Below are positions 1 through 11,623 of a stretch of DNA of 11,623 nt, in pieces (the first letter of the stretch is position 1; every line of letters starts with the position of its first letter). The notes below the pieces were generated by a model. The model did no database searches, was not told where the DNA came from, and saw nothing but the letters and a program-made list of their open reading frames with translations. The translations under genes and the position numbers were made by a program. This DNA comes from Thermodesulfobacteriota bacterium. Its GTDB lineage: Bacteria; Desulfobacterota; DSM-4660; Desulfatiglandales; HGW-15. The stretch covers positions 1 to 11,623 of the forward strand of contig JALOPA010000014.1 in NCBI GenBank assembly GCA_025454125.1. The letters run 5' to 3'.

Positions 1-2490
1 TATCAGGACAAGGAAAACCCCTATCTTCGTCTCGAAGGCCAGAGTCTCCTGATGACCTATGCCGCCGTGGAGACCCTGTTTCCTTCTCCGCTCGTGGCCT
101 CGTGGGTGGAAAAGGACCTGTTTCCGACCCTGCTCTCCGGAGATGTGCAGCTCGAGTCCTTCCTGATCGACGGACGACTCCTGCAACTCAAGAAACTGGA
201 GTGGCCCGAAAACCAGGGCGCCCTCTCCATGGGGTTTGATTGCAGGAACTTCACGGTCCATGGGGATCGGCTCAGAGAGCCGTTGAAGAACGTGTCGGCC
301 AAGGTCGCCCTGAAGGATGGAGTGCTGCTCGTGTCCCGGTTGAAAGGGGTGTCCGGCAAATCGGAGATCCGGGAAGGCCGCATGGAGGTCCGAGACATTT
401 ACCTCCCCCACCCTGCTTTTGAACCCTGGGTGGCCGGCTCCTTTGACCTGGAGGATGTGCTGCACCAGTGCAAGGCGCCTTTCCTTCCCCAGGGGTTCCG
501 AGAGGCGGCGGAAAAAACTGAGTCGGTGTCCGGCGTCCTGGAAGGCCAGGCCCGGTTTATTTACGACGCCTCCTTGGATTGCCCGGAAGTCATCGAAGCG
601 GATTTCCTCTTACGAGAAAGCACCTTCAAACACAAACAGTGGCCTTTCCCGGTGGTTCTGAAAGAAGGCCGTCTCAAGGTGGGAAACGAAAGCAGAACCC
701 CCTCCGGCGCGACGGCTCACGAGGAGAGCCCATGGCCCGAGCCGAGGGGTCGTTTCCAGGCCTCCGGCTCCTGGGGCGACTCTTCCTTTGAGGCAGAGGG
801 GGGCTTTGCTTTGCAGGGCTTGAGCCCTGAGCCGCGAAAGATGGAACTCACGGCCCGTCTCGACCTGGGCCAGATTTGGCCTGTGCTCTCTCCCGGCCGG
901 AGCGCAGAGCTCAAAGGGACCGCGCTTTGCAGGAGTTCGATCACAAAGGATGGGGATCAGTGGTCCTTCAAGGGGACGGCAAGCACCGGTGATCTCTCTG
1001 CAGATCACGAGCTCTTTCTCCTGGCTCCTCCAGGCAGAGACGATCGGATGACCTTTGAAGTCGACCTCCTTCCGGAGAAGCTGATTCACGTCAAACACCT
1101 GCTGTGGGAACCGGGGAAATCCCGCTTGGATCTTTCGGGAGACTTTCCTCTGTCCCAGGAGGGCGACCTCACTCTTCAGTGTTCGACTCCGGCCTTGTCC
1201 CTGGAGGACCTCGGCCTTCAGCTGAAGCCGCGAGGCTCTGTCCCTCGCGGATCTCTGAAGGGCAAGCTCCAGGCCAAAGTCCCGGGCAAGGATTTTTCCG
1301 CAGCAGCCGTGTTTGGAGAGATAAAGGGCGAGGACCTTTCCTTTCCTTTGGCTTCCCTTCCCGCTCCGGTTCGCAAGTGCGATTTCAGGGCCTTGTTTTC
1401 CGGCGACAAGGTCGTGATTCCCGACTTCACCGTGGTGACGGGGGAAAGCTCTCTCCAGGCCAAAGGAGAACTCAAGGGATGGAAGGGCCTCCAAGGTGGC
1501 TTGGCCGTGACCGCGAGCCCTCTCTTCCTCTCGGACTTCATGAATCCGGGGAAGGATTCTCTCGAAAAAAAGGAGCGTTCTCCTTTTGTGAAAAATACGG
1601 ACATCCGGGTCAGCGTGCATGCCCAGCCGGTGCAGTGGAAGAAATTCGATTTTGAAAAGATCAGGGCGGACCTTCTGTACAGGAAAGGGGATGTTCACAT
1701 CATCACATCCCAGCTCCAGATGGATCGGGGCATCCTTGAAGTGACCGGCTATATGAAAGAGGACGCCCTGGCTTTCGCCGCTCACGTGGAATTCAAAGAC
1801 CAACCCGTGGACGCCCTGCTCAAACGCATTGGGATTGAGCCTGTCTACGAGGGGAGTCTGACCATGGAGGCCCGGCTCTACACCGAGGGAAATGGGCTGG
1901 CGGAGCTTGTTTCTCACCTGGATGGAGCCACGAATGTCCTGATCAGTAAAGGGGTGGTCAGGAAGTCCAATCTCTTTCTCAAGATCCTTGAATTCCTGAG
2001 CCTCCAGAACATCTTCACGAAACGGCCGCCGGACCTCTCCAAAGAGGGGCTTTATTTCGAAAGCCTGGGCGGGCACGGCGACATTTCGCAGGGAGTTCTT
2101 CGCACTGAAAACGCCCAGATGAAGAGCCCGGTCCTCAATGCCGTGGCTGCGGGAAGCGCGGACCTCGGGCAAGGCCTCGCCGATTTTGACCTTGGGGTTC
2201 AGCCTCTCGGCACGATCGACATCGTCGTGAGCAACATCCCTGTCCTGGGCCACATTCTCACCGGGGAGAACAAATCCCTGATCACCTATTACTTCGAAGT
2301 TAAGGGACCTCTCCTCAACCCGCAAGTGGAAGCGGTGCCCTTCAAAGCCTTGGGCGACGGGGTGACCGGTATTCTCAAGCGGCTCTTTCTCTCCCCGGTC
2401 AAGCTTTTTGAAGATGTCTCCGACGGCATCAAGAAGCTTCCGGCCATCGAGGAAAGCCAGACCCCGGCCAGCCAGCACACCGGTTTTTAG
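1..2490 (+). CDS. AsmA/YhdP-like envelope protein, 5' end outside window
   Basis: The frame is open from base 1 (no stop and no start signal before the first in-window ATG at 52), so this is the C-terminal ~829 residues of a longer protein. The body is a long run of alternating beta-rich, amphipathic stretches typical of AsmA/TamB/YhdP-type proteins, which span or line the periplasm and are linked to lipid transport and outer-membrane homeostasis. The last ~200 residues (about 1930-2410) carry the AsmA-like C-terminal domain: a 'KGVVRKSNLFLKILEFLS' segment, a 'GLYFESLGGHGDISQGVL' segment, then 'SADLGQGLADFDLGVQPLG' and a 'YYFEVKGPLLNPQVE' strand. The tail (SPVKLFEDVSDGIKKLP) is the usual short C-terminal helix. 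Stop TAG at 2488. It converges on the minus-strand gene ending 4 bp away, with no clear terminator hairpin between them. The family is confident; the exact role and substrate are unknown. Confidence 0.85.
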   Translation, partial: YQDKENPYLRLEGQSLLMTYAAVETLFPSPLVASWVEKDLFPTLLSGDVQLESFLIDGRLLQLKKLEWPENQGALSMGFDCRNFTVHGDRLREPLKNVSAKVALKDGVLLVSRLKGVSGKSEIREGRMEVRDIYLPHPAFEPWVAGSFDLEDVLHQCKAPFLPQGFREAAEKTESVSGVLEGQARFIYDASLDCPEVIEADFLLRESTFKHKQWPFPVVLKEGRLKVGNESRTPSGATAHEESPWPEPRGRFQASGSWGDSSFEAEGGFALQGLSPEPRKMELTARLDLGQIWPVLSPGRSAELKGTALCRSSITKDGDQWSFKGTASTGDLSADHELFLLAPPGRDDRMTFEVDLLPEKLIHVKHLLWEPGKSRLDLSGDFPLSQEGDLTLQCSTPALSLEDLGLQLKPRGSVPRGSLKGKLQAKVPGKDFSAAAVFGEIKGEDLSFPLASLPAPVRKCDFRALFSGDKVVIPDFTVVTGESSLQAKGELKGWKGLQGGLAVTASPLFLSDFMNPGKDSLEKKERSPFVKNTDIRVSVHAQPVQWKKFDFEKIRADLLYRKGDVHIITSQLQMDRGILEVTGYMKEDALAFAAHVEFKDQPVDALLKRIGIEPVYEGSLTMEARLYTEGNGLAELVSHLDGATNVLISKGVVRKSNLFLKILEFLSLQNIFTKRPPDLSKEGLYFESLGGHGDISQGVLRTENAQMKSPVLNAVAAGSADLGQGLADFDLGVQPLGTIDIVVSNIPVLGHILTGENKSLITYYFEVKGPLLNPQVEAVPFKALGDGVTGILKRLFLSPVKLFEDVSDGIKKLPAIEESQTPASQHTGF

Positions 2491-2494
2491 AGCG

Positions 2495-2836
2495 TTAAGC
2501 GGATGGGTCGGTCGGCTCCGGAGGGAGAGGTTGTGTGACCGGTTCCAGCGGCGCACCTTCCTCTTTGGGAACGCGGGCGAGAAAGTCCCTCAGGCCCGGC
2601 TTCATGAACACCCGGCTGAGGTCAAAGCGGTTTACCGCCAAGGCGATGGCTTCTATTTTCTCTCTATTGGAGGCCTTCGAATTGGCGAGCAGAAGGTATT
2701 GTCCCTTCAGCCTGCACAGCCCCCCTTGCGTGAAGGCCCCCTCTCGCTTGAGTATTTCGTAGCGCACCTCAATGCCAAGACCCCGCGCAAGATCTTCCAG
2801 TTGACCGAGAAGCGAGCGTTCGTCCAAGAGAAGCAT
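2495..2836 (-). CDS. Small conserved-type protein of unknown function (113 aa)
   Basis: A small soluble protein with no signal peptide or membrane segment. Visible parts are an N-terminal helix (about 5-20), a central beta-rich stretch with 'GGLCRLKGQYLLLANS' (38-53), a helix (residues 57-69), 'FDLSRVFMKPGLRDFL' (71-86), and a Pro/Glu-rich tail. I do not recognise a named domain; the pattern looks like a short hypothetical found in deltaproteobacteria (recalled impression, not verified). Codon use looks coding. Start choice is open: a strong AAGGAGG (2837-2843) touches the ATG at 2836 with no spacer, whereas the in-frame TTG at codon 4 (2825-2827) lies 9 nt from it. The real protein may therefore be 110 aa from TTG. 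It lies 28 bp downstream of the zinc-ribbon gene and is probably co-transcribed with it. Confidence 0.75.
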   Translation of the reverse strand: MLLLDERSLLGQLEDLARGLGIEVRYEILKREGAFTQGGLCRLKGQYLLLANSKASNREKIEAIALAVNRFDLSRVFMKPGLRDFLARVPKEEGAPLEPVTQPLPPEPTDPSA

Positions 2837-2843
2837 CCTCCTT
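2837..2843 (-). promoter_or_regulatory. Strong Shine-Dalgarno that questions the start of the 113-aa gene
   Basis: Reading on the minus strand, AAGGAGG is immediately followed by ATG (2836-2834). Zero spacing is poor for initiation. The in-frame TTG at 2827-2825 has a 9-nt spacing and is a reasonable alternative start. An ATG at 2850 is in a different frame. Confidence 0.6.
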
Positions 2844-2864
2844 GTTCATGGCTTTGCGGGCCGG

Positions 2865-3182
2865 TCAATGAACCGGCCTGCCGCAGGACGGGCAGTAGCG
2901 AAAAGAGGCATCCATCGGCTGCCCGCAGGCCGGACAGGTCTGCCGGTTCTCTTGGGACCCTTCCGCCCAGGGCTGACCCGTTTCAGAGAAAAGGCCGCCA
3001 CAGCTCCTGCATTCCAGGAAGGGGGTCCCTCTCTTCACCGGGATCAGGGGGATGAAGAAGAGGGACACATAGTGATCCACTCTTTTCAGCCGCACCTGAT
3101 TGAGGCCGCACCTGGGGCACGCCCTAGAGGAAGGCTCAAGCTCGACTGTCTTGGGCTGGATGCCTGCGATGAAGAAAAACAT
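2865..3182 (-). CDS. Zinc-ribbon protein with four CxxC knuckles (105 aa)
   Basis: Four CxxC pairs are present: CPRC (22-25), CRSC (58-61), CPAC (83-86) and CPSC (97-100). The first two flank a basic/hydrophobic stretch (RLKRVDHYVSLFFIPLIPVKRG, about 31-52) and together form one split zinc ribbon. The last two form a compact C-terminal rubredoxin-like ribbon ending 'CPSCGRPVH'. Each pair of knuckles could bind one Zn2+. The N-terminus 'MFFFIAGIQPKT' is typical of short bacterial zinc-ribbon proteins and supports the ATG at 3182, preceded by GAGAGGGG. Function is unknown; such ribbons commonly mediate nucleic-acid or protein contacts. It is probably the first gene of a two-gene minus-strand unit with the 113-aa gene, divergent from the deacetylase-like gene. 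Confidence 0.8.
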   Translation of the reverse strand: MFFFIAGIQPKTVELEPSSRACPRCGLNQVRLKRVDHYVSLFFIPLIPVKRGTPFLECRSCGGLFSETGQPWAEGSQENRQTCPACGQPMDASFRYCPSCGRPVH

Positions 3183-3260
3183 GCCCCTCTCACCCTGAAC
3201 GCCGGCCTCGTTCTTCGTCGCCGAGTCTCTTGTATTTGCTTTCCCATTGTCAATAGAGAA

Positions 3261-3290
3261 TTGCTTTCAAGAAAACGAAAACTGTGCTAT
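3261..3290 (+). promoter_or_regulatory. Possible promoter of the deacetylase-like gene
   Basis: TTGCTT (3261-3266) and TGCTAT (3285-3290) are separated by 18 nt in an AT-rich patch of the 129-bp divergent intergenic region. Transcription would start about 10-15 nt before the first ATG at 3312. The match is modest. A TTGACA on the minus strand (3248-3253) could be a -35 for the zinc-ribbon gene, but no -10 lies at proper spacing. Confidence 0.35.
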
Positions 3291-3311
3291 TCAAGTCTTT
3301 AGAAATACGAC

Positions 3312-4403
3312 ATGGAGCGCAGGCCAATGGCAAGAAGCGGTTCAGAAGGGAAAGCAGGGACTTCCTCTGGTATCGTCAGGGACGCGCGGTACATGGATCA
3401 TTGGATGGGAGATTATCATCCGGAGTGTCCGCAGAGGCTCAAGGTCATTTATGAGATGCTGGAAGAGCCGGACATGGCCGGTCGCTTTCAGGAGATTCCG
3501 CCCAGACGCGCGGGGAAAAATGAGTTGCTTCTCGTTCATGCCGGATATTACATTGACACGTTGGCGGCCACTTCGGGGATCGAGTACACCTACCTTGACC
3601 CGGACACCCAGACCTGTGCCGCCTCTTACGACGCCGCGCTTTTGGCTGCCGGCGGCCTGTGCGAGGCGATTGCCAGGGTTAGCGCGGGAAAGCTCAAGAA
3701 CGCCTTTGCCCTTGTGCGGCCTCCCGGCCATCACGCGGAACGGGCTCAGGCCAAAGGCTTCTGCCTGTTCAACAACGTGGCTATCGGCGCCAGGGTTGCC
3801 CAGGAATCCCTCGGGGTCGGACGAATTCTCATTGTGGACTGGGACCTTCATCACGGAAACGGCACCCAGCACTCCTTTGAGGAAGATCCCACGATCCTCT
3901 ATTTCTCCACCCATCAGTACCCCTACTATCCTGGGACCGGCTCTTACAGCGAAGTCGGGACAGGCAAAGGCCAGGGGTTCACCGTCAATATCCCCCTCAC
4001 GATCGGATACGGAGACGCAGAGTACCTCAGCCTCTTCGAGAGGGTGCTGAAACCGATCTCTCTCCAGTTCAAACCCGAACTGATCCTTGTCTCCGCCGGC
4101 TTTGATATTTACATTGGCGATCCTCTGGGAGGGATGAACGTCACGCCGGGAGGCTTTGCCGCAATGACTCGGGCCATCATGGACCTGGCCGACCAATGCT
4201 GCGCAGGGAAAGTCGTCCTCACCCTCGAAGGCGGATACGATCTCAACGGGGAACGGGATTCGGTCAAAGAGGTGCTCAAGGAAATGGCCGGCCTGAACAA
4301 AACCAATCCGGCAGAACTGGCCGGCTCGGCCAATCAGGAGATGGTGGACAACGTGGTGGCGCGGGTCAGGAGCGCTCACGGTCGATACTGGAAGAACCTG
4401 TGA
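3312..4403 (+). CDS. Histone deacetylase-like amidohydrolase (class II type)
   Basis: A Zn-dependent deacetylase of the arginase/HDAC fold, expected in the cytoplasm and acting on acetyl-lysine or acetylated amines/polyamines. Motifs in order (363-aa numbering): 'HPECPQRLK' (36-44); 'RPPGHHAE' (136-143) with the charge-relay His pair 140/141; 'GFCLFNN' (149-155); 'DWDLHHGNGT' (176-185) supplying Zn ligands Asp178 and His180; 'SAGFD' (261-265) supplying the third ligand Asp265; 'LEGGYD' (305-310) with the transition-state Tyr309. All catalytic residues are present and the length is normal. The start is uncertain: ATG 3312 has no visible Shine-Dalgarno, while ATG 3327 (Met6) has GGAG 9 nt upstream; both leave the domain intact. 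The acetyltransferase gene follows after 64 bp on the same strand, with no terminator seen between them. The true substrate cannot be told from sequence; bacterial members may be protein deacetylases or acetylpolyamine hydrolases. Confidence 0.93.
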   Translation: MERRPMARSGSEGKAGTSSGIVRDARYMDHWMGDYHPECPQRLKVIYEMLEEPDMAGRFQEIPPRRAGKNELLLVHAGYYIDTLAATSGIEYTYLDPDTQTCAASYDAALLAAGGLCEAIARVSAGKLKNAFALVRPPGHHAERAQAKGFCLFNNVAIGARVAQESLGVGRILIVDWDLHHGNGTQHSFEEDPTILYFSTHQYPYYPGTGSYSEVGTGKGQGFTVNIPLTIGYGDAEYLSLFERVLKPISLQFKPELILVSAGFDIYIGDPLGGMNVTPGGFAAMTRAIMDLADQCCAGKVVLTLEGGYDLNGERDSVKEVLKEMAGLNKTNPAELAGSANQEMVDNVVARVRSAHGRYWKNL

Positions 4404-4467
4404 GATCATTCCGCAACCTTTTCACTCTTCAAGCAGTAACCGTTTAGCTTCAATCCCCTCTACTCCT

Positions 4468-5010
4468 GTGAAAGGCAACCCATTGATCCGCCAGGCACAA
4501 CCCTCTGACAGGGCCTTTATCGCCGCACTGAGCGGAAAAGCCTTCAGCGTCTATGGGCCCTACAGAACCACGGTGAGCCGGTGGTTTGATTCCGGAGTGA
4601 CTATGACCTTTGTCTCAACGGCTCAGGCAAGACCCGTGGGGTTTGTGATGATCGGCGCTTTGCCTGGAGACACGGAAGGGGAAACCCGTGCTGAGGTTCT
4701 GGCCATAGCGGTCCTCCCCGCGTTTCAGAACAAAGGAATTGGAGAGGGACTTCTCCAGCATGCAGAGAGGCGCCTGGAGGAGATGGGGGAGAAGCGGATC
4801 TTTCTCCACACAGCCAAGGAAAACCTTGCGGCTCAGAAGCTTTTTCTCAGAAGCGGGTTCAGGCCTGTGGAGATGAAGAAGGGCTTTTACCCCTTTGGCC
4901 AGGATGCTCTAATGATGGTGCATGAAATTAGAAAAGACAGGGATACCGATCCCTTAGGGGCGAAACCGTGCCCTCGGTCCATGCGCTTTCCGGATTTCGG
5001 GCTTGAATAA
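4468..5010 (+). CDS. GNAT N-acetyltransferase, RimI-like
   Basis: A GNAT-fold acetyl-CoA-dependent acetyltransferase of 180 aa. Motif A is 'VLAIAVLPAFQNKGIGEGLL' (77-96), with the acetyl-CoA pyrophosphate loop Q87-N-K-G-I-G92. Motif B is 'ENLAAQKLFLRSGF' (118-131), followed by 'FYPFGQDALMM' (140-150). The EN..A..LF...GF and YP..DA.MM features resemble the RimI branch, which acetylates N-termini of ribosomal proteins, but the protein is longer than RimI and has an extra ~25-residue tail, so the substrate is open. The start is GTG at 4468; no good Shine-Dalgarno precedes it, and TTG at 4483 is an alternative. It follows the deacetylase-like gene by 64 bp, and its 3' end contains the promoter of the next gene. 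Confidence 0.85.
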   Translation: MKGNPLIRQAQPSDRAFIAALSGKAFSVYGPYRTTVSRWFDSGVTMTFVSTAQARPVGFVMIGALPGDTEGETRAEVLAIAVLPAFQNKGIGEGLLQHAERRLEEMGEKRIFLHTAKENLAAQKLFLRSGFRPVEMKKGFYPFGQDALMMVHEIRKDRDTDPLGAKPCPRSMRFPDFGLE

Positions 5011-5032
5011 ATCAATCCGATCCATGTATAAT
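5003..5032 (+). promoter_or_regulatory. Sigma70-type promoter of the pilT cluster
   Basis: TTGAAT (5003-5008), an 18-nt spacer, then a perfect TATAAT (5027-5032). The -35 overlaps the last codons of the acetyltransferase gene. Expected transcription start is near 5039, giving a short leader before the GGAGG Shine-Dalgarno (5051-5055) and the pilT ATG at 5062. This is the best promoter match in the window. Confidence 0.7.
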
Positions 5033-5061
5033 CATAAGCTGACTTCTTCCGGAGGGTATGT

Positions 5062-6144
5062 ATGGCGCAAATTGATGCATTCTTCAAGCTCATGCACGAT
5101 CAGGGAGCATCGGATCTTCACATGGTATCAGGGCAGCAGCCTGTTCTGCGGATCGGCGGTGAGCTCGAGCGGGTCAAGTATCAACCTCTTGAAAATGACG
5201 GCCTCAAGGCCATGCTCTATGAAATCGCTCCCGAGCACAAGGTCAAGGAGTTCGAAGAAACGGGCGATGTGGATTTTGCCTATGAAATTCCGGGACTTGC
5301 CCGGTATCGAGCCAATTTCTTCCAGCAAAAGTACGGAATTGGCGCCGTCTTCAGGGAAATCCCTTCCAAAATTCTGAGCTGCGATGAGCTGGGGTTGCCC
5401 AAAGTCGTCCAGAGGCTGGCCAGTTTGCCCCGCGGTCTGGTGCTGGTCACCGGGCCCACAGGCAGCGGCAAATCCACGACCCTTGCGGCCGTTGTTAACG
5501 AAGCGAACATGAGCCGAAAGGATCACATCATCACCGTTGAAGACCCCCTGGAATTCGTTCACAAGAGTGAAAAGGCGATTATCAACCACCGGGAAGTGGG
5601 TCTTCACACCAAGTCCTTTGCCGCGGCACTCCGGGGTGCTCTCCGTGAAGACCCCGACGTCATCATGGTCGGTGAAATGCGCGACCTGGAAACGATCGCG
5701 CTCGCGATTGAGGCTTCGGAAACAGGACACCTTGTTTTTGCGACCCTGCACACGAACAGCGCCGCAAAGACCGTGGACCGCATCATTGAAGTCTTCCCGG
5801 TGAGCCAGCAGGAGCAGATCCGGAATACCCTGGCCGACGGGATCAGGGCCGTGATTTCCCAGACCCTTTTCAAGAGAAGGGACAAGCGGGGCCGGGTGGC
5901 GGCCCTCGAAATCATGATCGCCAACCCGGCCGTTCGAAACCTGATCCGTGAAGGAAAGACCTATCAAATCCCTTCCATGATCCAGACAGGAAAAAAATAC
6001 GGCATGCAGTCGCTCGACGACGCGATCCTGGAACTCCTGATGAAAAAGATCATCAGTCCTGACGACGCCTATACCAAGTGCAACGACAAGGGCAAGTTTC
6101 TCCCCTTCCTCAAGCAGCCTCCTTCCGATTTCACGGAGGTGTAG
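5062..6144 (+). CDS. pilT: PilT, type IVa pilus retraction ATPase
   Basis: A hexameric cytoplasmic secretion ATPase that depolymerises pilin at the base of the type IVa pilus and powers retraction and twitching. N-terminal PAS-like domain (1-~100, 'GASDLHMVSGQQPVLRIGG'), then the RecA-like domain. Walker A 'GPTGSGKST' is at 131-139; the Asp box 'HIITVEDPLEFVH' at 155-167; Walker B 'VIMVGEMRD' at 200-208; the His box 'TGHLVFATLHTN' at 221-232. The C-terminal PilT signature AIRNLIRE is present as 'AVRNLIREGK' (290-299). The length of 360 aa is standard. Shine-Dalgarno GGAGG sits 6 nt from the ATG. It is the first gene of a tight cluster with a second PilT-like ATPase 45 bp downstream. No pilin or assembly genes are in the window. 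Confidence 0.96.
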   Translation: MAQIDAFFKLMHDQGASDLHMVSGQQPVLRIGGELERVKYQPLENDGLKAMLYEIAPEHKVKEFEETGDVDFAYEIPGLARYRANFFQQKYGIGAVFREIPSKILSCDELGLPKVVQRLASLPRGLVLVTGPTGSGKSTTLAAVVNEANMSRKDHIITVEDPLEFVHKSEKAIINHREVGLHTKSFAAALRGALREDPDVIMVGEMRDLETIALAIEASETGHLVFATLHTNSAAKTVDRIIEVFPVSQQEQIRNTLADGIRAVISQTLFKRRDKRGRVAALEIMIANPAVRNLIREGKTYQIPSMIQTGKKYGMQSLDDAILELLMKKIISPDDAYTKCNDKGKFLPFLKQPPSDFTEV

Positions 6145-6189
6145 AACCGGAACCATACCCCGATCACGGACACTGAGGGAGCACAACAG

Positions 6190-7365
6190 ATGAGACGACA
6201 AGAGATTGACCATGTGTTGACCGCCATGCTCGAGTCCCATGACAATGTCTCGGACCTCAATTTCACGGTGGACAAACCCTGCCAGGTGGAGTCTTCAGGG
6301 CAGTTGGTGCCTGTGCCGCTTAACCCTCCCATTCCGAAGATTACCCCCTTTCAGGCTGAAGTTCTTGCCCTCAACCTGATCAACGGAGACCGCAGGCTCA
6401 CCCGGTTTCTTCTTTCAGAAGGCTCCTGCGACACGTCCTATCAGCTGGCGGGCAAGGCCCGTTTCAGGGTGAACATCTTCTCCCAAAAGGGCTACATCTC
6501 CACGGTCATGAGGCAGCTGGCCGCCCGGGTCCCCACCGTGGACGAAATGATGCTCCCCCCGGCTTTCCGCAGGATGGCGGAAGACCGCAACGGGATGATC
6601 CTGGTGACGGGCGCCACGGGAAGCGGCAAGTCCACCTCTCTTGCAGCGGTCCTCAACGAGATCAACGAGAGAAAATCGGTTCACGTGGTGACTCTGGAGG
6701 ACCCCGTGGAGTATGTCCACGCACAGAAGAGAGCCACATTCAACCAGCGGGAGCTGGGAATCGATTTCGACAATTTCGCCAACGGCTTGAGGGCCGCGCT
6801 CCGGCAGGCCCCCAAAGTGATCCTGGTCGGTGAAATGCGCGACAGGGAAACCGTGGAAATCGGGCTCTCTGCCGCTGAGACCGGCCACCTCCTGCTGACC
6901 ACGCTTCACACCGTGGACGCCGGCCAGACCGTCAACAGAATCGTCGGCATGTTCGAGCAGGAGGACGAAAAGCAGATCCGCATCCGCCTGGCGGATTCGG
7001 TGCGGTGGATCGCCTGCCAGCGCCTGCTGCCCAAGATCGGGGGTGGCCGTGTGGCCGCCTTTGAAATCATGAACACCAATCTGCGGGTGAAAGACACGAT
7101 CCTGAACGGCGAAGCAGAAGGGAAGACCTTCTACGACATCATCGAAGCCGGCCAACCCTTCGGCATGATGACCTTTGACCAGAGCATCACCGAGCTCTAT
7201 CAAAAGGGCCTCATCACCGAAGAGACGGCCATCAGCTATGCATCGAGAAAAGCGATTGTGGGGCGTGCCATTGACGCGGTCAAGTCGGCGAGAGGCGAAA
7301 AGACCACGTCCATCGAAGACCTTAAGATTGACCAGGACTACGCAAAAAAGTACGCAAAGATATAA
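6190..7365 (+). CDS. PilT/PilU-like ATPase, paralogue lacking AIRNLIRE
   Basis: A second PilT-family ATPase of 391 aa. Walker A 'GATGSGKST' (141-149), Asp box 'HVVTLEDPVEYVH' (165-177), Walker B 'VILVGEMRD' (210-218) and His box 'TGHLLLTTLHT' (231-241) are all intact, so ATP hydrolysis is expected. It differs from the upstream PilT: the retraction signature AIRNLIRE is replaced by 'LRVKDTILNGE' (298-308), the canonical DPDVI before Walker B reads 'APKVI', and there is an extra C-terminal tail of about 35 residues ending 'DQDYAKKYAKI'. In PilU-type paralogues such changes go with an accessory role that needs PilT, so I infer a PilU-like partner. Start ATG 6190 has GAGGGAG 8 nt upstream. It sits 45 bp from pilT and 15 bp from the next gene, which indicates an operon. 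The number and naming of PilT paralogues vary, so no symbol is given. Confidence 0.9.
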   Translation: MRRQEIDHVLTAMLESHDNVSDLNFTVDKPCQVESSGQLVPVPLNPPIPKITPFQAEVLALNLINGDRRLTRFLLSEGSCDTSYQLAGKARFRVNIFSQKGYISTVMRQLAARVPTVDEMMLPPAFRRMAEDRNGMILVTGATGSGKSTSLAAVLNEINERKSVHVVTLEDPVEYVHAQKRATFNQRELGIDFDNFANGLRAALRQAPKVILVGEMRDRETVEIGLSAAETGHLLLTTLHTVDAGQTVNRIVGMFEQEDEKQIRIRLADSVRWIACQRLLPKIGGGRVAAFEIMNTNLRVKDTILNGEAEGKTFYDIIEAGQPFGMMTFDQSITELYQKGLITEETAISYASRKAIVGRAIDAVKSARGEKTTSIEDLKIDQDYAKKYAKI

Positions 7366-7380
7366 CGAGGAGCAGAGACC

Positions 7381-8079
7381 ATGGAAGTGACCTGCGGGCA
7401 GTGCAAGGCCAGGTTCAACATTCCTGACGACAAGGTTCCCAAGGGCAAGATCATCAAATTGAACTGCCCGAAGTGCAAGGGCACGATCGCCGTCGGCGCT
7501 GAAGCGCCGGTAGAGCCTCCCAAGGCGGTGGAACCTGATGAGGCCCCCCTGACGATGATGAATCCGGCGGCCGGCCGCAAACCCCCTGAAGAGTCCTACG
7601 GGTACGAGGATTTCACGAGCGACCAGTCTCTCGATTTTTTTGAAGAGGGGATCAAGCTGGCCCTGATCATGCCCAACAGCAACATGAACGAAGATCACCT
7701 GCGGGCCGGCCTGGAGCTCATCGGATACAAGTGCATCCCCACGCCGAACACCCGGGACGCCATCGGTAAATTGCGCTTCCACCACTTTGACCTGATCATT
7801 CTCGCCGACGGGTTCGACAACCAGCCCCTGGATCACAGCGTCATCGTCAACTACCTGAACCGGCTGTCCATGTCGGTTCGCCGCAAGATCTTCCTGGCCC
7901 TCGTCTCGGACCAGTTCAAGACCATGGACAACATGATGGCGTTTGCCATGAGCGCCAACGTGGTGATCAACACCAAAGACCTCCAAAAGCTGCACCTCAT
8001 CCTGAAGAAGGCGGTCTCGGAGAACGAGCGCTTCTACAAGGTCTTCTTCGACACCCTTGTGGAGACCGGGAGAGCCTAG
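7381..8079 (+). CDS. MJ0042-type zinc ribbon fused to a degenerate receiver-like domain
   Basis: 232 aa. The N-terminus 'MEVTCGQCKARFNIPDDKVP' with C5/C8 and C29/C32 ('LNCPKCKG') is a classic MJ0042/zinc-ribbon knuckle of about 38 residues. A Pro/Glu-rich linker follows (40-80). Residues ~91-212 look like a response-regulator receiver fold: 'KLALIMPNS' (strand 1), 'GYKCIPTP' (strand 2), 'FDLIILADGFD' (strand 3), 'KIFLALVSD' (strand 4), 'ANVVINTKDL' (strand 5). The strand-1 acidic pair that binds Mg2+ is absent (MPNSN), though Asp143 after strand 3 could still align with the phosphoacceptor. It is probably a pseudo-receiver and protein-interaction module. Shine-Dalgarno CGAGGAG lies 8 nt from the ATG. 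The 15-bp gap to the PilT-like gene suggests a role in controlling or localising the pilus motors; this is inference from position only. Confidence 0.8.
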   Translation: MEVTCGQCKARFNIPDDKVPKGKIIKLNCPKCKGTIAVGAEAPVEPPKAVEPDEAPLTMMNPAAGRKPPEESYGYEDFTSDQSLDFFEEGIKLALIMPNSNMNEDHLRAGLELIGYKCIPTPNTRDAIGKLRFHHFDLIILADGFDNQPLDHSVIVNYLNRLSMSVRRKIFLALVSDQFKTMDNMMAFAMSANVVINTKDLQKLHLILKKAVSENERFYKVFFDTLVETGRA

Positions 8080-8091
8080 GTCCGTCGGCCC

Positions 8092-8364
8092 ATGGAGCAG
8101 AGGCACAAATACCGGCTCAGAGTGGAGATGTGCATCGGCACGATCATCGACGTGCACAAGCGAATTCAGTTCTCTTTTGAAAACCAGAAGCTGCTCTCCC
8201 AGTTCGAGCAGCTGAGGCGAGCGGTCAACGACATGGACATGACCCAGGTGTGTGAACGAGATGTGGTCCTGGTCGAACAGGCCACCAACGCGCTGCTCTG
8301 CGAGTTCCGCCCCGTCTTTGAAGACGGCAACTACGGCCCTGTCTACGAAATTCCCAGCCATTAG
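8092..8364 (+). CDS. Unknown small protein of the pilT cluster (90 aa)
   Basis: A soluble, helix-rich 90-aa protein. I recognise no domain. Visible features are a basic N-terminus (EQRHKYRLRVEM), a probable long helix at 31-48 (QKLLSQFEQLRRAVNDMD), and an aromatic/acidic C-terminus 'FEDGNYGPVYEIPSH'. It starts 12 bp after the zinc-ribbon/pseudo-receiver gene and has only a weak Shine-Dalgarno, so translational coupling is likely. Position suggests an accessory of the pilus ATPase cluster, but nothing in the protein itself shows it. Confidence 0.7.
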   Translation: MEQRHKYRLRVEMCIGTIIDVHKRIQFSFENQKLLSQFEQLRRAVNDMDMTQVCERDVVLVEQATNALLCEFRPVFEDGNYGPVYEIPSH

Positions 8365-8382
8365 CCGGCGTTTTGACGTGAC

Positions 8383-9210
8383 ATGAACACGAATCTTACG
8401 GACAAGGTCGTTCTCATCACCGGTGCCTCCGGCGGTATCGGTTCGGCCATCGCTCGCGCTTTTGCAGCGGAAGGCGCCAGGCTCGTTCTCCATTATCACC
8501 GCAATGTGGAGGGTGCTCGGATTTTGCAGCGCGAATTGGCGGAGAGCGAACCCTTCTTGGTCCGCGCAAATCTTACAAAAGAGCCCCAGGTGAAGAGCCT
8601 GTTTGACCTCGCCTTGAGACGGTTCCGCCGCGTGGACACCCTCGTGGCGAACGCCGGATCGTGGGAGCTTAGGGATGTGCCGCTCCATCGGATGCCGCTC
8701 AAGCAGTGGCGGGGGACGCAGGACGGTGTGCTCACCTCGACCTTCCTGTGCGTGCGTGAATTCTTCCGGCTGGTGGCCAAGCGGAAGCGCGGCAACGCCG
8801 TGTTGATCGGCTCCACCGCCGCCGTGTACGGCGAGGCGAACCATGCGGACTATGCCGCGGCAAAGGCGGCGATCGCTTTCGGTCTCACGCGGACTTTGAA
8901 GAACGAACTGACTCGCCTTGCGCCTCACACGCGGGACTACTGCGGCGGACGGATCAACTGCGTGTGCCCCGGATGGACCGTGGTGCCCCGCAGCGAGGCG
9001 AAGCTCGGCGACGCCCGAATCATCCGCAACGTCACCGCCACCATGGCGCTGCCCCAGATTGGGAGGCCTGAGGACATGGCCAACGCGGTGGTGTACCTGG
9101 CCTCCGACACCCTGGCGCGGCACATCACCGGCCAGACCCTGGTGATTGCAGGCGGCATGGAGGGACGCCTGCTGTGGCAACCCGAAGAAATCGATCCGTC
9201 CGCAGCCTGA
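8383..9210 (+). CDS. Short-chain dehydrogenase/reductase (FabG-like SDR)
   Basis: A classical SDR, NAD(P)H-dependent oxidoreductase of 275 aa. Rossmann glycine motif 'TGASGGIG' (13-20), 'NAG' (90-92), catalytic Ser144 in 'LIGSTAAVYG', and 'YAAAK' giving Tyr157 and Lys161; then 'INCVCPGWTVVP' (191-202) and the C-terminal 'ITGQTLVIAGGM' (248-259), all in order. His38/His39-Arg40 at the end of strand 2 ('LVLHYHRN') suits NADPH use. One oddity: the helix-4 Asn of the catalytic tetrad (usual 'vNL') aligns with 'DGVLTSTF' (114-121), so that Asn seems absent. The substrate cannot be told. It begins 18 bp after the 90-aa gene without a good Shine-Dalgarno and may be read through from the pil promoter; a functional link to pili is not evident. 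The mobile element starts 32 bp after its stop. Confidence 0.9.
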   Translation: MNTNLTDKVVLITGASGGIGSAIARAFAAEGARLVLHYHRNVEGARILQRELAESEPFLVRANLTKEPQVKSLFDLALRRFRRVDTLVANAGSWELRDVPLHRMPLKQWRGTQDGVLTSTFLCVREFFRLVAKRKRGNAVLIGSTAAVYGEANHADYAAAKAAIAFGLTRTLKNELTRLAPHTRDYCGGRINCVCPGWTVVPRSEAKLGDARIIRNVTATMALPQIGRPEDMANAVVYLASDTLARHITGQTLVIAGGMEGRLLWQPEEIDPSAA

Positions 9211-9242
9211 GCGTGCACCGGGCGCCTTCTGACCGCTCGTTT

Positions 9243-9257
9243 AGGGGACGTTGTTGA
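9243..9257 (+). repeat. Left terminal inverted repeat of the RAYT element
   Basis: AGGGGACGTTGTTGA, perfect inverted match to 10292-10306. Confidence 0.85.
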
Positions 9258-9266
9258 TTAACTTTA

Positions 9267-10241
9267 TTAGCCTCTTTCCCTTTTCCTGATGGCCTGCGAA
9301 ACCGCAGAGGTGGTTATCCCCAACTGCCTCCCAATCTCAGCCAGTGACAAACCATACTCCTCAACAAGTCTAGCGGCCAAATTCGATCGGATTTCTGGTA
9401 ATCGCCCCCGACGGCCCCCTCCCCTCAGCTCTTCGATCCCTATACCCTCCGCCTTGCACCTCTCGCGGATCATCCTAGCCGCCTTTAGCCTGCGCTCTTC
9501 CCCTGTCAGTCGGTGCTTTACCTTCTCCTCCGCTTCTCTCAGCAGCGCTTCAACAAACTCCCCGCTTCCCAGGATTCTCTCATCACAAAGCGCCCTCTCC
9601 TTGCTCCTTCTGAGCGACATCACCTCCGACCACCCTCCCATCGAACGAATCAACCCTCCCCCCACTAGATCCGGCCGACTCCCCTCCAATACTCCTTCCT
9701 TGACATAGGCCTTATACGCTCTCCTTGCCTCTCCCTCTCTTTTCCCAAACCACGATAGCACATAGTCTCGCTCCTGCCAGGGACGCTTAACCTTCCCCAT
9801 GAGCACACTGTGCCCGCACCAGCGGTATTTGCCAAGATCAGAGAGGTCCTTCACCTCCTTTGCTCTCAAAGGATTCAGGTGGATGTAGCGCACCAGTTCG
9901 GTGAAATAGGCGTCCTCATCGCAGACGATCGACTTGTAGCGGTTCTGGAAGAGGTGGCCATGGCGCCTGTGGCGGAGGTTGTAGGTGACGGCATAGCCTG
10001 TGAGGAATCGGCGCATGAAGGCGGCTAGGCCTCTGGGGCCGCTGCGCAAGAGAAGGTGGGCGTGATTGGGCATCAACGCCCAGGCGTAAATCGCGGTCTT
10101 CGTATCCGTGGCGCATTGCCCAAGTCGAGAAGCGAAGCGCTCACGATCCCTGTCGTCATCCACGATCTTCCGTTTTTCAATGCCCCTCACCATCACATGG
10201 TGAAGTGTCCCTGCACAGTCCAGTCTCGCTTGCCTCGGCAT
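9267..10241 (-). CDS. REP-associated tyrosine transposase (Y1_Tnp/HUH family)
   Basis: A single-strand DNA transposase of the IS200-like Y1 superfamily, RAYT branch. Using the ATG at 10241 (324 aa): conserved start 'MPRQARLDCAGTLHHVMVRG' (1-20), the HUH metal-binding motif 'MPNHAHLLL' with His60 and His62, candidate nucleophile Tyr83 or Tyr87 in 'GYAVTYN', then 'GHLFQNRYKS' (95-104) and 'YIHLNPLRA' (119-127), the standard order for RAYTs. The C-terminal half is longer than minimal family members and ends in a helix-turn-helix ('GLSLAEIGRQLGITTSAVSQ', about 297-316), likely for DNA binding. Start 10241 is chosen over 10265 because GGAGG lies 7 nt upstream and family proteins begin 'MPR'. The gene is intact, so the element may be active. 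Stop is 10 bp inside the left repeat. Confidence 0.92.
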   Translation of the reverse strand: MPRQARLDCAGTLHHVMVRGIEKRKIVDDDRDRERFASRLGQCATDTKTAIYAWALMPNHAHLLLRSGPRGLAAFMRRFLTGYAVTYNLRHRRHGHLFQNRYKSIVCDEDAYFTELVRYIHLNPLRAKEVKDLSDLGKYRWCGHSVLMGKVKRPWQERDYVLSWFGKREGEARRAYKAYVKEGVLEGSRPDLVGGGLIRSMGGWSEVMSLRRSKERALCDERILGSGEFVEALLREAEEKVKHRLTGEERRLKAARMIRERCKAEGIGIEELRGGGRRGRLPEIRSNLAARLVEEYGLSLAEIGRQLGITTSAVSQAIRKRERG

Positions 10242-10266
10242 TGTCCTTCCTCCGTCCCTTTCCACT

Positions 10267-10295
10267 CATTTACCAGATATATTAACGATAGTCAA
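10267..10295 (-). promoter_or_regulatory. Promoter of the RAYT gene, overlapping the right inverted repeat
   Basis: On the minus strand TTGACT (10290-10295), a 17-nt spacer, and TAAATG (10267-10272). The first four bases of the -35 (TTGA) are the inner end of the terminal repeat, so transposase binding to its end could occlude the promoter. Confidence 0.5.
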
Positions 10296-10306
10296 CAACG
10301 TCCCCT
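10292..10306 (-). repeat. Right terminal inverted repeat of the RAYT element
   Basis: Reverse complement of this stretch is AGGGGACGTTGTTGA, identical to 9243-9257. Confidence 0.85.
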
Positions 10307-10353
10307 TTATCTTGAAAGGTATGGGGGAGAAGCACGTTTTCAGATTTAGCTTT

Positions 10354-10653
10354 TCACGCTCTCCTTAGACGGCCTTGCAGTAGAGTGCTGGACTGCACTT
10401 CACGCTCAAGGGTTTGGAGGATTTCGTTGACTTGAGAAACCGAAAGGTAGCCGAGATCCTTCAAGATCATTCCCAGTAATCTTCTCTCTTCCGATCCAGT
10501 CTCTTGTGCTCTCTGTCTTAACAAGGCTTCATAGAGATGATCTGCGTTTATGAAACCCTTTTCGATCCCTATGAATCCAAAACGTCTCTTCGGTAAGTCC
10601 ATGCCGGTACGGCATTTCAATGCCTTCTCTTTTTCCTTTTTCAACAGAGCCAT
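10354..10653 (-). CDS. Small protein with two GspE-N/MshEN-like helical repeats (99 aa)
   Basis: After a Lys-rich N-terminus come two copies of the same pattern: 'FGFIGIEKGFINADHLYEAL' (25-44) and 'LGMILKDLGYLSVSQVNEIL' (60-79). This LGxxLxxxGxIxxxQLxxAL spacing is that of the N-terminal domain of type II secretion/type IV pilus ATPases (GspE/PilB/MshE), where some versions bind cyclic di-GMP. Key c-di-GMP Arg/Leu positions cannot be assigned with confidence here. ATG 10653 has GGGGAG 8 nt upstream. It lies 39 bp after the second DRR gene and is probably the last gene of that minus-strand unit. The similarity is by pattern only; function is unknown. Confidence 0.65.
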   Translation of the reverse strand: MALLKKEKEKALKCRTGMDLPKRRFGFIGIEKGFINADHLYEALLRQRAQETGSEERRLLGMILKDLGYLSVSQVNEILQTLEREVQSSTLLQGRLRRA

Positions 10654-10692
10654 TTGAGATACTCCCCTGGTGTGCTTCCCGAACAGGCAGTG

Positions 10693-10929
10693 TTAATCGG
10701 ATCCCTTGCGGCTCAACCTCGGTCGCAAGAATGCCGTGCTCTCTGAGCATGGCAAGCCTGCACTGGACCATTTGTCTACCCTGACCCAGTTCCACCTTCT
10801 CTCCCCATGGGTTCTTCGTTCCCAACCGCTTCTTCTTTCGATGCCGCCTTTGAGGAAATAGTCTTGGTCGAGATGGCTTCGCCTATCCTTGCCTTTGCGC
10901 CTGTCATGTGGGAAGCGAACTTTAACCAT
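10693..10929 (-). CDS. DRR-repeat small protein, second tandem copy
   Basis: A 78-aa Arg-rich protein (from ATG 10929). Five acidic-Arg-Arg units occur: 'DRRKGKDRR', then 'ERRSGWERR' and 'ERR', followed by 'WNWVRVDKWSSAG'. The order and spacing of ERRSGxxRR and the WVRxxxWSS box match the upstream gene, so the two are tandem paralogues. Start choice: GTG 10935 and ATG 10932 are also in frame, but GGAG (10935-10938) is best placed, 5 nt away, for ATG 10929. The GTG version overlaps the upstream stop as GTGA, which points to translational coupling. The tail after WSS is unrelated to the first copy. No named domain is recognised; runs of DRR are seen next to PilZ or receiver domains in deltaproteobacteria (recalled impression). 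Confidence 0.6.
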   Translation of the reverse strand: MVKVRFPHDRRKGKDRRSHLDQDYFLKGGIERRSGWERRTHGERRWNWVRVDKWSSAGLPCSESTAFLRPRLSRKGSD

Positions 10930-10931
10930 CA

Positions 10932-11168
10932 TCACTCCACGAGATCCCCGTCAATCCCGCTCATTTCTTTCCCTGAGCTGGACCATTGAGATGTTCGGAC
11001 CCAGTCTTTGCTTCGTTGTTCAGACTTCCTGCGATCTTGACCACTTCTCCTCTCGGGAAAGTGAGCTATATAGGAGAAGGTCCTTCTCTCAATGCCGGAG
11101 CGCCGATCATGTGAAGAGCGTCGATCCCCCATTGCTCGGAGATTTCTCTTGATTGGCCTGTGACCCAT
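10932..11168 (-). CDS. DRR-repeat small protein, first tandem copy (78 aa)
   Basis: A 78-aa Arg-rich protein with units DRR (15-17), DRR (21-23), ERR (27-29), ERR (39-41) and DRR (45-47), then 'DWVRTSQWSSSG' (55-66) and a short acidic tail 'GIDGDLVE'. Strongly basic with regularly spaced acidic-Arg-Arg triplets; nucleic acid, phospholipid or nucleotide binding are all possible, none shown. ATG 11168 has GAAGG 7 nt upstream; Met13 is an alternative start. The stop TGA overlaps possible starts of the second copy. The tRNA-like gene lies 67 bp upstream on the same strand with no terminator seen, so co-transcription from the tRNA promoter is possible. Confidence 0.6.
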   Translation of the reverse strand: MGHRPIKRNLRAMGDRRSSHDRRSGIERRTFSYIAHFPERRSGQDRRKSEQRSKDWVRTSQWSSSGKEMSGIDGDLVE

Positions 11169-11235
11169 CCCACGACCTTCTGAACTCTTTCCTTAACCCT
11201 TCAAACCCGATATTGCCAGGCAACGACAGAGGCCT

Positions 11236-11348
11236 TGGTGGAGCCGGCAGGACTTGAACCTGCGACCTCAGAGCTATGCGGCGAACGCCTTCCTTATTTG
11301 TTCCATCTCGCCACAAGGCTCTGCGCTCTCCCACTGAGCTACAGCCCC
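11236..11348 (-). tRNA. tRNA-Ala-like gene with a 45-nt hairpin in place of the anticodon loop
   Basis: Reading on the minus strand: acceptor GGGGCTG (11342-11348) pairs with CGGCTCC, including G3:U70 (tRNA-Ala identity), discriminator A73 and encoded CCA (11236-11238). TA at 8-9, D arm GCTC-AGTGGGA-GAGC, G26, anticodon stem CAGAG (11319-11323) with CTCTG (11269-11273), variable loop AGGTC, T arm GCAGG-TTCAAGT-CCTGC: all intact and canonical. The anticodon loop is 45 nt (11274-11318) rather than 7. It folds into a further helix TGTGGCG (11309-11315) with CGCCGCA (11277-11283), capped by a 25-nt loop. Minus 38 nt the gene would be 75 nt including CCA, a normal length. No way of removing 38 contiguous loop bases puts T at position 33, so a simple intron giving a usual anticodon loop does not fit. 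Amino-acid identity is inferred from G3:U70, not from an anticodon. It could be functional in another role or a disrupted gene. Confidence 0.8.
11274..11306 (-). other. Tag-like mini-ORF inside the tRNA-like hairpin
   Basis: ATG GAA CAA ATA AGG, then AAG GCG TTC GCC GCA TAG: the peptide MEQIRKAFAA then stop. The Ala-Phe-Ala-Ala-stop end resembles the (hydrophobic)-Ala-Ala C-terminus of tmRNA (ssrA) degradation tags. The last two Ala codons and the stop lie in the closing helix and its junction, as the tag end does near helix 5 of tmRNA. The same frame is open back to the 5' end of the tRNA-like gene, so the ATG need not be the first codon read. It may be chance. Confidence 0.3.
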
Positions 11349-11544
11349 ACTGCGCGTATTTTCTTGAGCATCTTTCATGCCAACAATGATGTTTAGAATG
11401 TTCATTGAAAATTCAGGTGGTTAGAGAGGATCTAGAAACCCAGATCCCTATTTGTGTAAGAAACTACTGAAATATTGAGAACCTGGTTTCCACTTCTTGG
11501 CAAAAGACTTCACACTCAAAGGCTTGGTGAAATGGGAAAGAATA
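11349..11544. other. Stretch without a recognised gene
   Basis: AT-richer than the rest of the window and without a convincing coding frame. It holds the candidate tRNA promoter and a small hairpin GGATCT/AGATCC (11428-11433 with 11442-11447, 8-nt loop) with no T-run. A 42-codon minus-strand frame ending at about 11454 is not supported by any start signal. Confidence 0.5.
11355..11383 (-). promoter_or_regulatory. Possible promoter of the tRNA-like gene
   Basis: On the minus strand TTGGCA (11378-11383), a 17-nt spacer, AATACG (11355-11360), then a GC-rich CGCGC discriminator just before the mature 5' end at 11348. GC-rich discriminators are usual for stable-RNA promoters. The -10 match is weak. 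Confidence 0.35.
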
Positions 11545-11597
11545 GGCCCCTGAACGGGCGGATGTTTCCCCTGCATCCACATTGACATTCAGGGGCC
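11545..11597 (-). terminator. Two-tier hairpin, possible terminator or structured RNA
   Basis: A perfect 10-bp inverted repeat, GGCCCCTGAA (11545-11554) and TTCAGGGGCC (11588-11597), encloses a second 5-bp stem GGATG/CATCC (11560-11564 with 11574-11578). On the minus strand it is followed by TATTCTTTCCC, a weak T-rich tract, so it may end a transcript entering from the right. On the plus strand there is no T-run. A regulatory or repeated element is an alternative. Confidence 0.4.
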
Positions 11598-11623
11598 AGG
11601 AGGAGAACGGGGAGACCCGCGCC

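Follow-up and report, generated by a model that had tools for sequence, protein, structure and literature searches.

A tRNA-Ala-like gene with a 45-nt sequence in place of its anticodon loop in a deltaproteobacterium: most likely a disrupted gene copy

Introns at position 37/38 are known from the tRNA genes of archaea and eukaryotes. In bacteria, group I introns interrupt some tRNA genes; the core of such introns is 200 nt or more. Disrupted tRNA genes and pseudo-tRNAs are also known in bacteria, the pseudo-tRNA of Bacillus cereus being one example. Recognition by AlaRS needs the acceptor stem but not the anticodon. In tmRNA (Rfam family RF00023), an Ala-type tRNA body carries other sequence in place of the anticodon loop. 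Bacterial Y RNAs such as YrlA offer a further comparison; in the available part of PMC7790460, YrlA is a tRNA mimic with a hairpin arm, and the idea is voiced that it may act as a decoy. Here, we compare these systems with a tRNA-like gene in contig JALOPA010000014.1 of assembly GCA_025454125.1. The whole stretch of DNA analysed, positions 1 to 11,623 (11,623 nt), is referred to as the window.

The gene is 113 nt long and lies on the minus strand at 11236..11348, as do all of the elements listed here. The 5′ strand of the acceptor stem (GGGGCTG, 11342..11348) pairs with positions 11240-11246, and the third pair is G:U. A D arm with a 4-bp stem and a 7-nt loop follows (11325..11339). The 5′ strand of the anticodon stem (CAGAG, 11319..11323) pairs with positions 11269-11273. 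The 7-nt anticodon loop is then replaced by a 45-nt sequence (11274..11318), 38 nt more than normal. The remainder consists of the 3′ strand of the anticodon stem (CTCTG, 11269..11273), a 5-nt variable loop (AGGTC, 11264..11268), a T arm with a 5-bp stem and the loop TTCAAGT (11247..11263) and, at 11236..11246, the acceptor 3′ strand CGGCTCC with A73 and an encoded CCA. The D arm and the two 3′ strands were assigned from fold and sequence, the T arm also from the match to RF00005, and the 45-nt and variable loops from sequence. Every stem is fully paired: acceptor 7/7 (including G3:U70), D stem 4/4, anticodon stem 5/5 and T stem 5/5. A sixth anticodon stem pair, C-G, is possible.

In a cmscan of 201 bases, the 113-nt gene matched the tRNA family RF00005 with 54.6 bits (E 1.7e-11), against a cut-off of 29. 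Hence, the tRNA body is not due to chance; we regard it as certain. A preliminary description of this DNA had held that all tRNA elements except the anticodon loop are intact, and both this claim and the sequence, coordinates and 45-nt loop that it gave were borne out. The gene shares with bacterial tRNA-Ala, as modelled in RF00005, the whole body, G3:U70, A73 and CCA, so that its cloverleaf is that of a tRNA-Ala. It differs in that the loop is 45 nt long, with no anticodon in a 7-nt loop. ARAGORN run without introns called no gene. With introns allowed, the program called exactly 11348..11236. However, it did the same for 1000 of 1000 shuffled inserts and the call is thus given no weight.

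The minimum-energy fold of the 113 nt has a free energy of -48.4 kcal/mol (z -2.43), equalled by 3 of 200 shuffles. It keeps the cloverleaf and lengthens the anticodon arm by an 8-bp helix, one bulged base and 3 bp. The 5′ strand of this inner helix is at 11304..11315 and the 3′ strand at 11277..11287 (pair probabilities 0.75-1.0), and the two enclose a 16-nt apex at 11288..11303, all on the minus strand. The 7-bp helix with a 25-nt apex reported earlier describes this helix by a stricter count. When the insert was shuffled within an unchanged body, 2.6% of 5000 shuffles folded at least as well. For the insert alone, the corresponding values were 4.1% for dinucleotide shuffles and 5.8% for single-base shuffles. 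When 2238 45-mers were sampled from the window, 22.8% folded at least as well as the insert. The inner helix is thus barely better than chance (p 0.04 for the insert alone), and the hairpin is weak evidence of selection. No stretch like the insert was found elsewhere in the window, where 173 of 200 shuffled inserts scored as high. We rejected the idea that the insert arose from the 3′ trailer by inverted duplication: the 5′ strand of the arm matches the trailer over 13 bases with two gaps, but 27% of 2000 shuffles scored equally well.

The gene could contain a 36-nt intervening sequence at 37/38, cut out by an unknown endonuclease, after which an unknown ligase would join the ends. We consider this very unlikely. 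If the sixth stem pair is allowed, removal of 36 nt leaves a 7-nt loop of C32, U33, UGU, G37 and A38, and 5.6% of 20,000 shuffled inserts offered any such canonical solution. In addition, archaeal and eukaryotic introns lie at 37/38, and phage tRNA genes with removable inserts (described below) also favour excision. Conversely, the solution was noticed only after the intron mode of ARAGORN had pointed there. Excision would produce a 77-nt tRNA that combines an alanine-type acceptor with a UGU (Thr) anticodon on a 6-bp anticodon stem, which is odd. Furthermore, the 5′ junction lies within the 8-bp inner helix of the minimum-energy fold and not in a bulge, and the phage inserts, which are unlike that of the window, interrupt the anticodon stem on its 5′ strand instead of lying at 37/38. 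Because of the mismatched acceptor and anticodon, the 6-bp stem and the position of the 5′ junction, we judge such a spliced product possible but unlikely.

Other removals were less productive. No 38-nt removal gave U33, and neither did variants with a 5-bp stem, loops of 7-9 nt and variable loops of 4-6 nt. No removal yielded an alanine anticodon together with U33. The earlier argument against splicing, which had been built on 38-nt removals, was therefore correct for that length but too strong, since the 36-nt removal leaves a canonical loop. The resemblance to archaeal and eukaryotic introns at 37/38 lies in the insert within the anticodon loop and in this canonical product; the gene differs from them in its bacterial host, the odd product and the lack of a bulge-helix-bulge at the 37/38 junctions. 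With bacterial group I introns it has in common an interrupted bacterial tRNA gene. A group I intron was nonetheless rejected: 38 net bases are far too few, and no Rfam group I family matched up to E 1.

The gene lies 275 bases from the window end. Pfam families were found in 5 of 8 window proteins searched: an IS200-like transposase, a short-chain dehydrogenase, two zinc ribbons and a histone-deacetylase domain. We presume that two further frames are PilT-like and one AsmA-like. Among the best 120 of 601 matches to a neighbouring zinc-ribbon protein, relatives were up to 88% identical and the three with an organism name were one Syntrophobacteraceae and two Deltaproteobacteria. The window looks like bacterial chromosome and not phage. 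Near its end, at 11545-11597, is a strong hairpin with 10-bp arms, GGCCCCTGAA and TTCAGGGGCC; 3 of 200 shuffles folded as well. The IS200-like (RAYT-type) transposase gene is on the minus strand, between 27-nt inverted repeats that are 85% complementary (window 9243-10306).

This transposase raises a further explanation for the insert, that the Y1_Tnp (RAYT-type) enzyme encoded 1 kb away brought a REP-like palindrome into the tRNA gene. The Y1_Tnp gene, at 10265..9267, is accompanied by its 27-nt inverted repeats at 9243-9269 and 10280-10306, and the insert is a hairpin containing GTGG, a REP tetranucleotide. Against this, 391 of 500 and 382 of 500 shuffled inserts scored as high as the real insert in comparisons with the two repeats, and the insert has no second copy in the window. 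We rejected insertion by the nearby transposase, which is highly improbable given that the insert has no likeness to the repeats flanking the transposase gene.

A drastically reduced tmRNA, with the hairpin holding a short tag frame (MEQIRKAFAA-stop, 11306..11274), is scarcely credible. RF00023 was the best family by E-value (clan winner) in the scan of the whole window, with 34.8 bits, and a frame of at least 8 codons that ends in Ala-Ala-stop occurred in 0.4% of shuffled inserts. However, this score is below the cut-off of 47. ARAGORN found no tmRNA. The gene has a D stem and lacks pseudoknots, and in these respects it differs from tmRNA, despite sharing an Ala-type body with other sequence at the anticodon loop. 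The frame was sought post hoc, and an Ala-Ala-stop frame is present in 2 of 102 long-arm tRNA genes, the window gene included. In two other genomes (L145 and L147), weak tmRNA matches likewise fell on ordinary or long-arm tRNAs beside a full ssrA. We rejected the tmRNA assignment on the basis of the sub-threshold score and the D stem.

A sequencing, assembly or chimera error at 11274-11318 is a more serious concern, albeit quite unlikely. The contig is single and apparently metagenomic, no second copy was found and the gene is close to the window end. Conversely, there is no duplicated stretch. The complete pairing of both acceptor and anticodon stems shows that the two halves belong to one tRNA, and are not a fusion of two.

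We searched for homologues with a gapped pattern made up of an Ala-type 5′ end and D arm, 50-80 nt and a T arm. A version with a less specific acceptor matched the window once and 0 of 200 shuffles. Across 84,980 species, each represented by one genome and by contigs of at least 3,000 bases, the gapped pattern gave 23 stretches, none resembling the window gene, with the qualification that the pattern letters are fixed and a homologue with a change in one of them is missed. The window's own locus is not among the 23. Five of these stretches are archaeal by title, four of them with an excisable insert. Thirteen appear to be tRNAs, normal or truncated, with more tRNA pieces behind them or fused to them, and two contain runs of N. 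The last three are bacterial and have an insert in the anticodon arm (L145, Leptospirales; L147, Andersenbacteria; L137, WOR-3).

Applied to viral contigs, the same gapped pattern gave 4 stretches, all with normal arms, and two window-specific patterns gave no matches. A blastn search of phages and plasmids found no match to the gene. With the two halves of the body as query, five plasmid records matched at 73-74% identity, in places with no annotated feature. The patterns used for the next two sets fix letters of the D and T arms and so detect only part of all tRNAs. Among 398 Pseudomonadota genomes, a long-gap pattern matched two, namely the genome on which the set was centred (a fused tRNA) and one with a normal arm by its printed start; we judged neither to be genuine. 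Among 116 relatives of the Andersenbacteria genome, the two matches were the central genome itself and one with a different insert. Together, these searches of genomes, viruses, phages and plasmids returned no homologue with the extra hairpin. Among the open-licence papers found on bacterial and phage tRNA introns, pseudo-tRNAs, RAYT and REP elements, tRNA decoys and tRNA decay, no title or abstract describes such a gene. The words 'intron', 'tRNA-like' and 'anticodon' do not occur in the available part of PMC7162821.

Altered anticodon arms occur elsewhere. In two Leptospirales genomes, a vWA_Ro60 gene and rtcB flank a tRNA-like gene that has an arm insert (1490-1608 on the minus strand of L158 and 1495-1611 on the plus strand of L159). 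Immediately before the tRNA-like gene, and next to the vWA_Ro60 gene, is a hairpin that we call Y-RNA-like from its position and predicted fold; it matches no Rfam Y family. Over 234 nt of this stretch, the two genomes are 85% identical. Of 61 genomes searched, 2 had a full-length match, and of 120 searched with a pattern, 2 matched; both counts include the starting genome. A further 4 genomes had matches of 25-30 nt only.

A scan of viral sequences for tRNA genes with long anticodon arms gave at least 120 stretches (L001-L120). Among 87 distinct long-arm phage tRNA genes with good stems, 21 have the 5′ strand of the anticodon stem interrupted by a 40-54-nt insert, without which the stem would be fully paired and the loop normal; the rate in shuffles was 0.0000 (50 shuffles each). 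Examples include L006, L012, L020, L061, L074, L077, L094, L096 and L110. In many of them, an ACWGCAA-like motif comes after a hairpin. From their sequences, these inserts are possibly very small intervening sequences, and we know of no description of such inserts in phage tRNA genes. In a wider test that was not confined to phages, 40 of 100 genes had some canonical removal, many with several cut sites.

A different conserved insert motif, UCAWGG-AAGGRCC, is common to 10 of 122 pattern matches and absent from 0.98 Mb of control loci; the phage tRNA-like genes concerned are L002, L035, L053, L083, L101, L102, L105, L111, L116 and L120. Ro60-like genes were seen near the long-arm phage tRNA genes L013, L054, L062, L072, L075 and L097, that is at 6 of 120 long-arm loci compared with 1 of 118 control tRNA loci (one-sided Fisher p 0.06). 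This association is suggestive only. RtcB was encoded at 0 of 120 long-arm and 0 of 118 control loci. By eye, the L072 insert and the Leptospirales Y-like hairpin share CACTACTTG, and no Leptospirales or phage insert resembles that of the window.

These cases show that a tRNA-like gene can be conserved even when its anticodon arm is altered, and this keeps a functional reading of the window gene alive. One such reading is an RNA with a role other than decoding, which we consider rather unlikely. The complete body with its AlaRS determinants, the stable coaxial arm predicted by folding and the Leptospirales precedent all favour it, as does the decoy idea for YrlA. Conversely, no homologue was found, the inner helix is near chance, a translated search of the window with Ro60 and RtcB proteins found neither, and on the gene's strand between 10600 and 11623 there is no promoter of the sigma-70 type and no terminator-like site. 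The preliminary description had listed a non-decoding RNA, a processed tRNA and a fresh insertion. The list was the right one, yet an RNA with a role of its own is left without support by the absence of homologues and same-strand signals and by a near-chance helix. We rejected a bacterial Y RNA: the gene shares tRNA mimicry and a hairpin arm with YrlA, but there is no Ro60 (rsr) gene in the window and no Rfam Y family matched. A broader proposal places the gene, as a chromosomal case, in a scattered and so far unrecognised set of bacterial and phage tRNA genes with a small extra RNA element in the anticodon arm. The element would either be cut out as a tiny intervening sequence or stay in place to bind a protein or act as a decoy, and in some lineages would be linked to Ro60, Y RNA and the RtcB ligase. 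We regard this proposal as doubtful.

The feature is real and unusual, but a single case. The explanation that we prefer, and to which we give an even chance, is a copy of a tRNA-Ala gene in a deltaproteobacterium, interrupted inside the anticodon loop. A net insertion of some 38 bases would have occurred within the loop. Any transcript of the gene could still be a substrate for trimming by RNase P. Charging by AlaRS is also conceivable, because AlaRS needs the acceptor stem and the body keeps G3:U70 and A73. Such an RNA would be chargeable in principle but unable to decode. The lack of a homologue, the near-chance inner helix, the lack of any removal that restores U33 with a 5-bp stem and the absence of Ro60 and RtcB from the window all point to interruption, and we count the missing promoter and terminator on the same side. 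Insertion at this place has a parallel in L137 (minus strand, reverse-complement position 1768), where a whole tRNA-Ala(TGC) lies inside the anticodon arm of an Ala-type tRNA remnant that has 7/7 acceptor pairs but 2/5 T stem pairs.

Several observations stand against interruption. The 36-nt removal gives a canonical loop, and no more than 3 of 200 shuffles fold as well as the whole gene. There is no sign of decay in any stem or at the tRNA consensus positions, which are all intact. Altered-arm tRNA-like genes are conserved in Leptospirales and phages, and the absence of homologues depends on exact pattern letters. The gene resembles bacterial disrupted tRNA genes and pseudo-tRNAs in being tRNA-like and unfit for normal decoding, but it has all its stems and is changed in the loop alone. 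The serious rivals to an interrupted copy are an RNA with a function other than decoding, an assembly error and a tRNA that undergoes splicing. Given that no relative was found in the searches made, a disrupted gene copy is the most likely explanation of the feature, ahead of a new kind of RNA. It is likely a recently interrupted and dispensable copy, with a hairpin that arose largely by chance, and not a conserved regulatory RNA.

If the gene is functional, it would be an example either of an RNA that can accept alanine but is unable to decode, or of a bacterial chromosomal tRNA gene with a very small intervening sequence. The main value of the comparison is that it brought to light conserved tRNA genes with arm inserts in phages and Leptospirales, which are directly testable.
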